Positions 28,993 to 64,000 of a stretch of 64,000 bases of DNA are shown here, piece by piece; the stretch's first letter is position 1; each line of letters opens with the position of its first letter. The stretch comes from Neptuniibacter caesariensis (lineage in GTDB: Bacteria; Pseudomonadota; Gammaproteobacteria; Pseudomonadales; Balneatricaceae): positions 447,738-511,737 of the forward strand of contig NZ_CH724125.1 in NCBI RefSeq assembly GCF_000153345.1. Reading direction: 5' to 3'. Made by a program: the position numbers and the translations under genes. Under the pieces are notes generated by a model. It was given only the letters and a program-made list of their open reading frames with translations. It searched no databases and was not told the origin of the DNA.

Positions 28993-30695
28993 GTCAGATG
29001 GATCGTACTAGCTACGCACAGATGTTTGGGCCTACCGTGGGTGATCGTGTCCGTCTGGGTGATACGGAGCTTTGGATTCAGGTCGAAAAGGATCACACAA
29101 CCTACGGTGACGAAGTGAAGTTTGGTGGTGGCAAGGTGATCCGTGACGGGATGGGCCAGAGCCAGTGCACCAATGAGATTGCGATGGATCTGGTGATCAC
29201 TAATGCACTTATTTTGGATTACTGGGGAATCGTTAAAGCGGATGTCGGTGTTAAAGAAGGTCGTATTGCCAAGATAGGTAAAGCCGGTAATCCCGACGTT
29301 CAGGACAACGTCGATATCGTTATTGGTCCGGGTACTGAAGTGATCGCTGGAGAGGGATCTATCCTGACAGCAGGGGGGATCGATGCGCATATCCATTTCA
29401 TCTGTCCGCAACAGATCGAAGAAGCGTTAATGTCCGGTGTCACCACCATGATTGGCGGTGGAACCGGCCCCGCGACAGGGACAAATGCGACGACTTGTAC
29501 CCCAGGGCCCTGGTATATGGGCAAGATGTTACAAGCTACCGACGATATGCCGATGAATCTGGGTTTTTTGGGTAAAGGTAATGCAAGCCTCCCTGATGCT
29601 CTGGAAGAGCAAATCAATGCAGGAGCATGCGGCCTGAAACTTCATGAAGACTGGGGTACGACCCCGGCTTCGATCGATAACTGTCTAACGGTAGCCGAGA
29701 AATACGATGTTCAGGTGGCCATTCATACCGATACCCTTAATGAATCAGGGTTTGTTGATGACACCATAGGTGCGTTTAAAGGGAGGGTTATTCATACCTA
29801 CCACACTGAAGGGGCGGGTGGTGGACATGCTCCGGATATTATTCGTGCCTGCGCGTATCCAAATGTGATGCCCTCTTCAACCAATCCAACCCGGCCTTAC
29901 ACCCACAATACCGTGGATGAGCATCTGGATATGTTGATGGTCTGTCACCATCTGGATAGCAATATTCCGGAAGATGTCGCCTTTGCCGATTCACGTATCC
30001 GTAAGGAGACCATTGCCGCGGAAGATATCTTCCATGATCGTGGTGCGTTTAGCATGATCTCATCGGATTCTCAGGCGATGGGGCGGGTCGGTGAAGTTGT
30101 TACTCGTACCTGGCAGACCGCCCACAAAATGAAAGTGCAGTTTGGCTTATTGGCAGAAGATAAAGAGTGCGGTACGGATAACTTCCGAGCTAAGCGCTAT
30201 ATCGCTAAATACACAATCAATCCGGCAATTACGCATGGTGTATCCCATGAAATCGGTTCCATTGAGGAAGGTAAACTGGCTGATCTGGTGCTTTGGAAAC
30301 CCGCTTTCTTTGGTGTTAAACCTTCAATGATTATCAAGGGTGGCATGATTGCCGCAGCGCCAATGGGTGATCCAAATGCATCCATTCCTACACCTCAGCC
30401 GGTTCATTATCGTCCCATGTTTGGCGCTTATGGCTCAGCGCCTGCGAAAACCTCAGTAACTTTTGTCAGCCAAGCCGCGCTGGATAATAACGTCGGTGAA
30501 GAATTGGGGCTTAAGCGCCGTCTGGTTGCTTGTAAAAACACGCGAAACATCACTAAGTCCGACATGATCCTCAATGACTGGATGCCAGATATTACGGTGG
30601 ACCCACAAACCTATGAGGTTCGGGCGGATGGTGAGTTACTGACCTGCGAACCGGCAGAAGAGCTGCCACTTGCACAGTTATATACCCTGTTTTAA
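28989..30695 (+). CDS. ureC: Urease alpha (catalytic) subunit
   Basis: Nickel enzyme that hydrolyses urea to ammonia and carbamate. All active-site residues are present at their classical numbers: nickel ligands H134 and H136 (DAHIHFICP), carbamylated K217 (GLKLHEDWG), H246 and H272 ([11 protein letters not shown]), D360 (SSDSQAMGR), and flap residues C319 and H320 (MVCHHLD). Length 568, normal. It should be fully active. The ammonia would feed nitrogen assimilation. Confidence 0.98.
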
Positions 30696-61706: not shown

Positions 61707-62756
61707 ATGAACACAGTTCTATTCGATCATCCCGAATTTGATGGTCACGTGAATATCTTTGCTCACTTTGATGAGAAAACCGGCCTTAAAGCCATGAGCG
61801 CAGTTCACCGTTCCTGGAACGGTAAGCCTGCCGTAGGTGGATGCCGTCTACGCAACTATGCTTCAGCTGACGAGGCCTTTACTGACCTCTTGCGCCTGTC
61901 AAAAGGGATGACCTACAAATCGGTACTGGCGGGTTTAGATTACGGCGGTTCCAAGTCCGTGATGATTGCCAATCCTGAAACCATGGATCGTCGCGATACT
62001 TTCCTGGCGATGGGTGATTTTGTAGAAAGTCTGGGCGGTAAAATCAGTACCGGTGTAGATGTTGGCTTGACCGCAGCGGATGTTGAAGTCATGGGTGAGC
62101 GGACATCTTACTTGGGCGGTCGCGGTGCTTTAGCACCTGATCTTGTAACTGCTTATGGCGTGCTTACCTCAATACTTGCCGCGGTAAGGCACCGCAAAGG
62201 CAATGACGACCTTACCGGTATGCACGTTGCGGTGCAGGGATTGGGTAAGGTCGGCTATAAGCTCGTTGAACTGCTTCTTGAAAGGGGCGCAAAGGTTGTT
62301 GCAGCTGAGGTAAATGAAGACTCAGTGGCCCGCGCCCGTGATAACTATTCAATCGACATCGTCGATCCTTCTGTGATCCATGCTCAAGATGTCGATATCT
62401 ACAGCCCCTGTGCATTAGGCATGGTGATAAATGACCAGAGTATCAATGAGATCTCTGCGGGCATTGTTGCCGGGGCTGCCAATAACCAACTTACTTTGCC
62501 TGGGCATGGTGTGTCTCTGGCGAAGAAGGGTGTTCTGTACGTACCAGACTATATCAGTAACTGCGGTGGTCTTTTAGCCGTTGCCAATGATCTCGAGAAA
62601 AGCGATGAGAGTTGGGTCTGGGACAAAGTAGCCGAGATTGCAGGCACCCTGGACGAAGTTTTTACTCTTGCTGACCGTGAGGGAATTGCAACCAGTGATG
62701 CGGCCGATCAGATCGGCGCTGCACGCATTGCTGCGTTCGATAAACAGCAGGGGTAA
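61707..62756 (+). CDS. Glu/Leu/Phe/Val dehydrogenase
   Basis: A 349-residue NAD-dependent amino-acid dehydrogenase of the leucine/phenylalanine dehydrogenase size class, which deaminates amino acids to 2-oxoacids. Seen: the substrate-binding lysines in RLSKGMTYKSVLAGLDYGG then SKSVM (about 68-93), GVDVGLTAADVEVM, and the Rossmann motif VAVQGLGKVGYKLVELLLER (about 172-191). The exact amino acid is not readable here; phenylalanine or branched-chain amino acids fit the operon. A gene-less 436-base structured region follows. Confidence 0.9.
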   Translation: MNTVLFDHPEFDGHVNIFAHFDEKTGLKAMSAVHRSWNGKPAVGGCRLRNYASADEAFTDLLRLSKGMTYKSVLAGLDYGGSKSVMIANPETMDRRDTFLAMGDFVESLGGKISTGVDVGLTAADVEVMGERTSYLGGRGALAPDLVTAYGVLTSILAAVRHRKGNDDLTGMHVAVQGLGKVGYKLVELLLERGAKVVAAEVNEDSVARARDNYSIDIVDPSVIHAQDVDIYSPCALGMVINDQSINEISAGIVAGAANNQLTLPGHGVSLAKKGVLYVPDYISNCGGLLAVANDLEKSDESWVWDKVAEIAGTLDEVFTLADREGIATSDAADQIGAARIAAFDKQQG

Positions 62757-63192
62757 AAAACCATTCAGTCGAAATTCAACCCGGCTGATAAGAAACCCAA
62801 AAGGTTCGACAACGAGGGAACCTGAGAATAAGTCTCGGACTTTCTCAGTGGACAATAAAACGGCTTAGTGCGCGAAAGGCAGTGCAGTGTAATGACGAGT
62901 CCTTTCCAAACTGCCTGACAAAGCAGGAAGCCGTTTTAGTGCCCACCCAAAGGGGCTTACAGAGCGATTCAATCTCTGCGTTAACGATCTTCGACGTACA
63001 ACCAGTATGTCTGTAATCGTTGCCTTGATCTTGAACCGCTCTGAAAGCCTGAGTCGTTCAAGGTTTGTTCGCAGGTTCCCTGGCTTTTAACAGGAGAGCC
63101 GTGCTTAACCCAGGCCTGGTGGCCAACACAAAGTCCTGACTTTCATGCACGGATCGTCAGGACTCTTATAACAATAATTGGAGTGCCCAAAA
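62757..63192 (+). ncRNA. Candidate large structured leader RNA (unknown class)
   Basis: No protein gene, but many helices on the + strand, with perfect pairing unless stated. P0: GTCGAA/TTCGAC (62768/62805). P1, long range: AGGGAACCTG/CAGGTTCCCT (62815-62824 with 63072-63081). P2: CTGAGAA-AGTC/GACT-TTCTCAG (62822-62848, shares 3 bases with P1). P3: TAAAACGGCTT/AAGCCGTTTTA (62856-62866 with 62928-62938), inner GGCAGT/ACTGCC or alternatively GAAAGG/CCTTTC. P3b: GCCC/GGGC (62941/62953). P4: CAGAG/CTCTG (62960/62974). P5: AACGAT/ATCGTT (62983/63016) with inner GACGTAC/GTATGTC (one G-T). P6: CTTGAAC/GTTCAAG (63030/63056). P7: GGCT/AGCC (63082/63097). P9: AGTCCTGAC/GTCAGGACT (63132/63156). P1 would enclose P2-P6 as a multibranch domain. 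No match to a riboswitch, RNase P or tmRNA I know. It ends at the ribosome site of the next gene, so a cis-regulatory leader is likely. Confidence 0.6.
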
Positions 63193-64000
63193 ATGAAACT
63201 ACGCAACTATCTGGCAGCGGCAGTTACTGCTGCATCTTTTTCACTTTCTGCTTCTATGACTGTCCAGGCTGAGCCTGTTTATGTCGCTGCCACAGCGATT
63301 GTTGAACATCCCGCGTTAGACGCTGTACGTGATGGCCTTAAAGAAACACTGGCTAAAAACGGCTATAGCGATAATGATCTGAAATTTACCTATGAAAGTG
63401 CTCAGGGTAACCCAGCAATTGCCGCGCAGATTGCACGCAAGCTGGTGGGCGATAGTCCTGATGTTATCGTTGCGATCTCTACTCCCTCGGCGCAAAGCGC
63501 AGTTAGCGCAACACAAGATATTCCGGTGGTATTTTCTGCGGTTACTGACCCGTTAAGCGCTAAACTGGTAAGCAATTTTGATAAACCTGGTAAGAACGTT
63601 ACAGGTTTGTCGGATATGTCTCCGGTACAGCAGCACTTGGAACTGATGCAAGAAGTTCTGCCAAATCTGGAAAAAGTAGGCGTACCTTACAACCCAGGCG
63701 AGCCAAATGCGGTTGCACTGGTTGAATTGCTCAAGATTGAAGCGTTCAAAATGGGCCTGGAAATTGTAGAAGCGCCGTCTCCAAAATCCTCTGATGTAAT
63801 GATTGCTACACAAAAGTTGATTGGCAAAGTTGATGCGATCTATTGCCCTACAGATAACACCATCCTGACAGCGCTTGAGTCAGTGGTAAAAGTAGGAATT
63901 GATGCTCAATTGCCTGTATTTGCAGCAGAAACCAATGCCGTACAGCGTGGAGCAATGGCTGCGCTTGGCTTTGATTACGAAGATATCGGTCGCCAGACCG
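63193..64000 (+). CDS. ABC transporter substrate-binding protein (TrpX type), partial
   Basis: The gene runs past the window end; 269 codons are visible. A signal peptide (KLRNYLAAAVTAASFSLSAS, cleavage near VQA) precedes YVAATAIVEHPALDAVRDGL and the family core QIARKLVGDSPDVIVAISTP, DIPVVFSAVTDPLSAKLV and PNLEKVGVPYNPGEPNAV, which fit the ABC_sub_bind family (tryptophan or related ligand binding, TrpX/YtrF-like). GGAG at 63180-63183 is well spaced from the ATG. Permease and ATPase genes are expected just beyond the window. The long structured leader upstream may regulate it. Confidence 0.88.
   Translation, partial: MKLRNYLAAAVTAASFSLSASMTVQAEPVYVAATAIVEHPALDAVRDGLKETLAKNGYSDNDLKFTYESAQGNPAIAAQIARKLVGDSPDVIVAISTPSAQSAVSATQDIPVVFSAVTDPLSAKLVSNFDKPGKNVTGLSDMSPVQQHLELMQEVLPNLEKVGVPYNPGEPNAVALVELLKIEAFKMGLEIVEAPSPKSSDVMIATQKLIGKVDAIYCPTDNTILTALESVVKVGIDAQLPVFAAETNAVQRGAMAALGFDYEDIGRQT

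Follow-up and report, generated by a model that had tools for sequence, protein, structure and literature searches.

A MITE with IS5-type ends beside a TrpX-like transporter gene of Neptuniibacter caesariensis encloses two convergent, putatively structured units that recur in other elements

The interiors of MITEs are often regarded as leftover DNA. Among the described systems that come close to the element reported here, MITEPsy1 of Pseudomonas syringae is, in the accessible text of its report (PMC3189936), a non-autonomous element with IS5-type 18-nt ends and a TCTGAA core, which duplicates 4 nt on insertion at CTAG or YTAA and whose transposition was seen. At 100 nt in total it is too short for two 101-nt units of the kind described below, and it is likened to our element by description only. 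QMITE1 and QMITE2 of Coxiella burnetii, also compared by description only, are structured MITEs of 150-400 bp from a gammaproteobacterium that are transcribed at some sites. Unlike our element, they have direct repeats of 2-3 or 7-11 nt in place of a 4-nt YTAR, and paired convergent units are not reported in the available part of the source (PMC5896051). The bcr1-bcr18 repeats of the Bacillus cereus group, from another phylum and likened again by description only, are interspersed, some of them MITE-like and some with conserved secondary structure, and about half of their copies are transcribed (PMC3446304, PMC2267715; accessible parts). Pseudomonas fluorescens harbors the intergenic repeats R0, R2, R178 and R200 (PMC2718517, excerpt); R0 and R2 share their ends with IS elements, and R178, at 101 bp, has the length of one of our units, a likeness of length only. 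IS5 insertion sequences (NCBIfam NF033581) share with our element the ends and the YTAR target site, which IS5 is reported to duplicate in the accessible portion of PMC10359306; unlike it, they encode a transposase, and the structured unit was absent from the 30 loci searched. A review, seen in part, notes stable stem-loops in MITE transcripts and speculates about riboswitches. In the accessible parts of the literature, with subscription journals thinly covered, we found no MITE with paired convergent units.

The window analyzed here is a stretch of 64,000 nucleotides from N. caesariensis. The original prediction had described its positions 62757-63192 as a 436-base multi-helix RNA of an unnamed class, in which a 10-bp helix closes five others into a multibranch domain, and which would fit a metabolite-sensing leader, or another large regulatory RNA, ahead of the TrpX-type transporter gene. 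We assign the following features to this region and its neighbors.

62817..63079, plus strand: whole mobile element, GGAACC...GGTTCC, 263 bp (repeat boundaries, alignment of copies, position of the target-site duplication)
62817..62836, plus strand: left terminal inverted repeat of IS5 type (consensus of the family, GGAACCTGCGAAYAAGTC; IS5 transposase loci bear similar ends)
63060..63079, minus strand: right terminal inverted repeat (alignment of copies; similar ends on IS5 transposase loci)
62847..62947, plus strand in the modelled sense: putative structured unit 1, or arm 1 (model R1, 111.7 bits, E 3.9e-24; covariation)
62948..62951, no strand: 4-nt spacer between the units, in the small central hairpin (sequence; pairs 131-138 and 132-137)
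62952..63052, minus strand in the modelled sense: putative structured unit 2, or arm 2, inverted homologue of unit 1 (model R2, 106.1 bits, E 4.1e-25; covariation; homology)
62813..62816, no strand: left target-site position CGAG, decayed duplication (sequence against the family rule YTAR)
63080..63083, no strand: right target-site position CTGG, decayed duplication (sequence against the family rule YTAR)
61707..62756, plus strand: upstream host gene, Glu/Leu/Phe/Val-type dehydrogenase (best NCBIfam match Trp_DH_ScyB, 293 bits, below its cut-off of 600)
63193..63999, plus strand: downstream host gene, ABC_sub_bind (best NCBIfam match ABC_SBP_TrpX, 226 bits, below its cut-off of 390; cut by the window end)

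The helices of the predicted RNA are real, and the folding energy of the whole 436-nt stretch is -160 kcal/mol, compared with -118.4 ± 6.0 kcal/mol for shuffled sequences (z -6.9; 0 of 100 shuffles as good). The strong fold is, however, confined to the 263 nt of 62817-63079 (z -7.6; 0 of 200 shuffles as good), and the flanks folded alone are weak (62757-62816, z -1.7; 63080-63192, z -2.4), so that the supposed 436-base RNA amounts to a 263-bp repeat within ordinary spacer. The minus strand of the stretch, too, is far more stable than its shuffles (z -5.4), a result that agrees more closely with a palindromic repeat than with a leader acting on one strand. The pairing of 62815-62824 (AGGGAACCTG) with 63072-63081 (CAGGTTCCCT) is perfect over 10 bp; it is the terminal repeat of the element. 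ORFs within or overlapping the stretch are small mechanical ones of 44-93 aa; as in a MITE, the 263-bp element contains no transposase gene. No promoter-like site was found in 62700-63250. Outside the element, a hairpin at 63132-63164 (GTCCTGAC...GTCAGGAC, loop ATGCACGGATC) lies directly upstream of the TrpX-like gene. Its loop recurs with other stem letters in L177 (by eye) and L178, is absent from the other 20 leaders examined, and the hairpin may constitute a separate, small regulatory element that acts locally.

Copies of the element are dispersed throughout the N. caesariensis genome and beyond. The genome holds 16 full-length copies, the window copy included, at 69-100% identity, along with shorter pieces, and most of the full-length copies match the stretch from query positions 59-61 to 323-325. 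Window copy aside, the own-genome matches end at the element termini or a few bases from them, indicating that the flanking DNA is not common to the copies. The other 15 full-length copies all occupy gaps between ORFs, which by crude ORF calls are convergent in 6 cases, tandem in 7 and divergent in 2. Calls of the same crude kind place 26 class-wide loci in 9 divergent, 7 convergent and 6 tandem settings, with 2 scored inside an ORF and 2 undecided; no clear preference for an insertion context emerges from these two sets. Matches at E<=1e-5 occur in 29 of the 116 genomes of the family, own included, and scanning public genomes for the terminal sequence gave at least 112 stretches. Marinomonas, Neptuniibacter, Marinobacterium, Motiliproteus, Pontibacterium, Amphritea, Endozoicomonas and Neptunomonas are among the genera of the matches listed, and a distant-mode search of plasmid and phage records gave no similar DNA. 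Facing end pairs span exactly 265 bases in 67 of 145 cases among the loci collected, some places being counted twice.

The own genome also contains six copies of just 41-74 bp, which consist essentially of the two ends alone. These derivatives, together with two copies that have rearranged interiors (C3, C4 and C5; L024, L025 and L026-L031), suggest that internal deletion is a regular outcome. A further copy, L043:41-329, lies near a contig end between flanks that are mutually reverse complementary (TAGATGGTGTTG / CAACACCATCTA), reflecting either a palindromic target or an assembly artefact.

After removal of a row at a contig edge from 127, the set used to study the borders contained 126 distinct copies in a common orientation, 104 of them full-length. 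An exact 4-bp duplication outside GGAACC...GGTTCC is present in 46 of the 126, against 14.2 expected when left flanks are cross-paired with the right flanks of different copies. The duplication extends to 5 bp in 0 of the 126, and the target consensus YTAR is found on the left in 77 and on the right in 75. Two end pairs spanning ~1.16 kb enclose transposases (L128, L175): the one from Endozoicomonas matches NF033581, IS5 family, at E 2.9e-102, and the one from Marinomonas balearica is frame-broken, its first part matching NF033581 at E 5e-45. A family-wide search with the enclosed transposase was positive in 61 of 116 genomes (E<=1e-20). Of 30 IS5 loci taken from this search, 25 have similar ends, with at most 4 mismatches each, and an exact 4-bp duplication flanks 14 of these. 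Since ends, duplications and partner loci match, mobilization in trans by IS5 appears likely: an IS5-family transposase would recognize the 18-20-bp ends and insert the element at YTAR with a 4-bp duplication. The identity of 62817-63079 as a mobile element of the MITE kind is secure.

The own genome (98% complete) gave 0 matches to an IS5-family transposase at E<=1e-20, which bears on present mobility, itself unproven, and not on origin. At the window copy, the duplication has decayed to CGAG on the left and CTGG on the right. Taken together with the missing transposase, this indicates that the window copy is probably an old, stranded insertion. Models R1 and R2 detect the structured unit in 0 of the 30 IS5 loci and in neither L128 nor L175; as judged from these searches, the units are not part of IS5.

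Subfamilies of different sequence display a common architecture, running from the ends through CTCAG, arm 1, a small CCC/GGG hairpin, arm 2 and CTGAG to the opposite ends. The predicted fold of each arm starts with a long stem (~18 bp plus 2-3 further pairs), opens into an internal loop and continues through a 7-bp stem to an apical loop that is itself structured. When 32 diverse arm-1 and 27 arm-2 units are aligned, with arm 2 read on the minus strand, the two folds are near-superposable. Aligning all arms together did not yield a consensus fold that could be used, and the units were modelled separately as R1 and R2. The arm-1 profile scores 10.5 against the reverse complement of arm 2, 5.3 against arm 2 unreversed and 4.8 ± 0.6 against shuffled columns, in a copy set that included 7 misoriented copies. 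In a subfamily outside both models (Motiliproteus, Neptuniibacter, Amphritea), R1 finds both arms on opposite strands at nine loci and R2 at two. A joint profile places one arm on each strand in 115 of 169 elements, all 115 convergent, with a single arm in 48 and none in 6; this count keeps one match per strand and element, so that same-strand pairs would count as single arms. The R1 and R2 match lists contain no same-strand pair. The arms are, in their predicted structure and sequence relationship, two homologous units of ~101 nt facing each other. Some elements, 160-189 bp in length, show one unit match only (L094, L134, L135, L142), which makes the unit look like a module.

The paired positions of both units show compensatory changes. 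Such changes affect 26 of 34 pairs in arm 1 and 26 of 35 in arm 2, and ~95% of the pair cells in the two alignments hold standard pairs. For all five covariation measures, the observed value lies beyond those of all 500 shuffles and all slid versions; the structures tested were derived from the same alignments and are therefore favored over the slid versions. On a tree of 132 copies, arm 1 underwent 153 changes from one Watson-Crick pair to another and arm 2 underwent 147; when partners are slid by 1-3 columns, such double changes number only 4-9 and 5-15, respectively. These shuffled and slid controls account for phylogeny in part. In a structure-free scan of column pairs, the stem pairs rank first. 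Comparison of the copies thereby shows a predicted fold that is kept by selection while its sequence drifts. An H-type pseudoknot between internal and apical loop (AAGG:CCTT), seen by eye in many arm-1 type units, was set aside: it is missing from arm 2 of the window and from others, and its pairs are not among the 110 best covarying column pairs.

The unit is not restricted to elements with one kind of end or to a single family of Gammaproteobacteria. R1 matches occur in 27 of 293 genomes of the order and R2 matches in 22 of 369 genomes of the class and 13 of 398 of the phylum, the own genome counted each time, in searches whose filters lose weak matches; three of the phylum genomes are outside the class, all in one family. 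In a ten-genome search, the number of matches per genome varied from 1 to 43 (the latter in G014). The order and class searches supplied 38 loci; the models find both units in 26 of these, always convergent and 3-7 nt apart, and one unit in 12. With L300 and L305 excluded because they lie at contig edges, 36 loci were examined for terminal repeats, which were recognized in 31; the second border was assumed for ten loci. By eye, 24 of the 31 have IS5-like ends (GG.A.C.TCTGAA.AA and variants) and 7 have ends unlike IS5. Both units are present between the non-IS5 ends TAGGG(C/T)CTGTTGACGTTTCGTTGCG (L272, L273), TGTGTAGTGTAT(C/T)GGATAGATT (L282) and CTAGTGTGGTGTAACGAACTAATTGTG (L279), and one unit over threshold in each of L281, L287 and L309. 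At 22 of the 31 loci, the repeat runs into CTCTG or CTCAG at the start of the cassette. A shared cassette with differing ends indicates that the ends were exchanged, or that they diverged past recognition. L289 (G224), whose unit is flanked by repeats (ATGAAAATGCC...) that differ from the usual ends, is possibly a further kind of carrier.

Taken jointly, we consider it very probable that an IS5-mobilized MITE carries a modular pair of structure-selected units, the units probably acting as RNA. Comparison supports the description of the locus as a MITE with IS5-type ends, apparently incidental here, whose convergent units recur in other elements. The question of RNA can be addressed through the strand, since departures from Watson-Crick pairs towards G-U in preference to A-C show which strand is read, pairs being predicted on both strands alike. 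In 132 copies, with 10 set apart as another subfamily and the inferred changes taken as independent, the ratio of G-U to A-C departures in arm 1 is 65:33 (p 0.0016); in arm 2, in its own minus-strand sense, it is 43:30 (p 0.16), not significant alone. Unpaired sites give ~1:1. RNA-derived structures gave 110:56 and 50:92, such structures leaning towards G-U. The modelled sense scores far above the antisense (R1, 111.7 against 37.4 bits; R2, 106.1 against 33.2 bits), so the models agree with an inward sense. The inward-reading strand of each arm is moderately favored as RNA, or as single-stranded DNA, on these sequence-based grounds. The antisense of the window arms folds well too (z -6.3 and -6.7), in arm 1 better than the sense (z -6.3 against -4.3), and together with the lack of significance of arm 2 alone this leaves room for a role at the DNA level.

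Such a role would be that of single-stranded DNA or cruciform hairpins selected for the transposase or the replication machinery and not as RNA. A multicopy element is expected to keep aids to its own transposition, both strands fold, one inward unit per end resembles a subterminal site, and the high proportion of standard pairs agrees with it. We nevertheless find this explanation unlikely, because IS5 loci with similar ends do without units, the cassette also occurs inside different ends, and A-C is rarer than G-U in arm 1, although G-T pairs form in DNA as well.

Rather improbable, in our estimate, is an ordinary MITE with a functionless interior kept by repair between the stem strands. Template switching and gene conversion are able to mend the stems of inverted repeats, and stems could be maintained in this way. 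The mismatch asymmetry in arm 1 speaks against such an origin, as do a unit length held near 101 nt and the loop bases AAGGC, CAG, AA and AAC, which are conserved class-wide in the alignment fitted to model R2. These conserved loop bases argue for a specific partner over bare hairpins.

The same internal- and apical-loop nucleotides, which are among the most conserved positions, would suit small ribozymes, one per strand, cutting any transcript that enters the element; the inward orientation would offer one sense unit for either reading direction. We regard this as very improbable, as no ribozyme family reaches its gathering threshold and no cleavage motif was identified. Rfam 15 gives no match at the gathering threshold for the stretch or for 37 further loci (33 of the 38 and four family loci), and the only match in a permissive search (E up to 10), twister-P3, which scores 15.3 bits (E 6) where the gathering score is 39.9 and falls mostly outside the units, was discarded. 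In this respect, the unnamed structured class of the original prediction stands, its pairs under compensatory change and without an Rfam counterpart. Elsewhere in the window, 29142-29424 on the minus strand match RF02514 (5_ureB_sRNA) with 93.1 bits against a gathering score of 40.

The proposed link to the transporter gene did not survive the comparison with other sites and other genomes. Of the 30 ORFs nearest to the other 15 copies, 26 have a Pfam match, to flagellin, regulators, transporters and hydrolases among others, and none belongs to the ABC_sub_bind or the dehydrogenase family. Four of the 10 other genomes searched, all same-genus, keep both neighbors (L177-L180), and in 4 of 4 the spacer is without the element; in L177, the bases that lead to the insertion point (AAACCCAAAAGGTTCGACA) are preserved, and the spacer continues past them with no element. 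The gene is present at E<=1e-90 in 23 of 116 genomes, own included, and the unit is in the leader of 0 of the 22 other relatives. One of these, L313 (G108, another genus), has an element copy at L313:38-243, ~1.25 kb upstream of its TrpX-like gene, a position unlike that in the window. The TrpX label is itself weak, with 226 bits against a cut-off of 390 for a protein cut by the window end, and no functional tie between the element and the ABC_sub_bind gene was found. A metabolite-sensing leader, whether riboswitch or attenuator, deserves hardly any credence and is refuted as an ancestral leader: its place directly upstream of the gene, strong folding and covariation of the riboswitch kind are outweighed by copy number, varied neighbors, empty sites, relatives' leaders, terminal repeats, target duplications and the missing Rfam match. 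As the comparison of genomes indicates, the copy at the TrpX-like gene is an incidental insertion.

We return to the IS5-mobilized MITE with its modular unit pair. The units would act in cis for the element as nucleic-acid folds, with RNA likelier than single-stranded DNA. As they face inward, a transcript arriving from either side makes one sense unit first. The insertion could thereby be tolerated, with the units taming or processing read-through transcripts or else recruiting an RNA-binding factor of the host. More tentatively, and as a possibility that we do not favor outright, the ~101-nt unit may represent a new class of structured RNA spread as MITE cargo across Gammaproteobacteria, between the ends of several unrelated transposon families, with one job for all of them, e.g., handling run-in transcripts so that the insertion is harmless. 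The modular convergent pair proposed for this class reads CTCWG, unit, short hairpin, inverted unit, CWGAG.

What is new here is the modular unit. Across the elements compared, the interior is common and the ends differ, one folded convergent pair with conserved loops being found within IS5-like and clearly different ends. The finding also calls for caution, in that copies elsewhere should be looked for before a well-folded spacer is called a riboswitch. If the unit acts as RNA, it would constitute a class missing from Rfam 15 that has 20 to 43 matches in some genomes, and it would permit a direct test of how small transposons avoid harm to their host.
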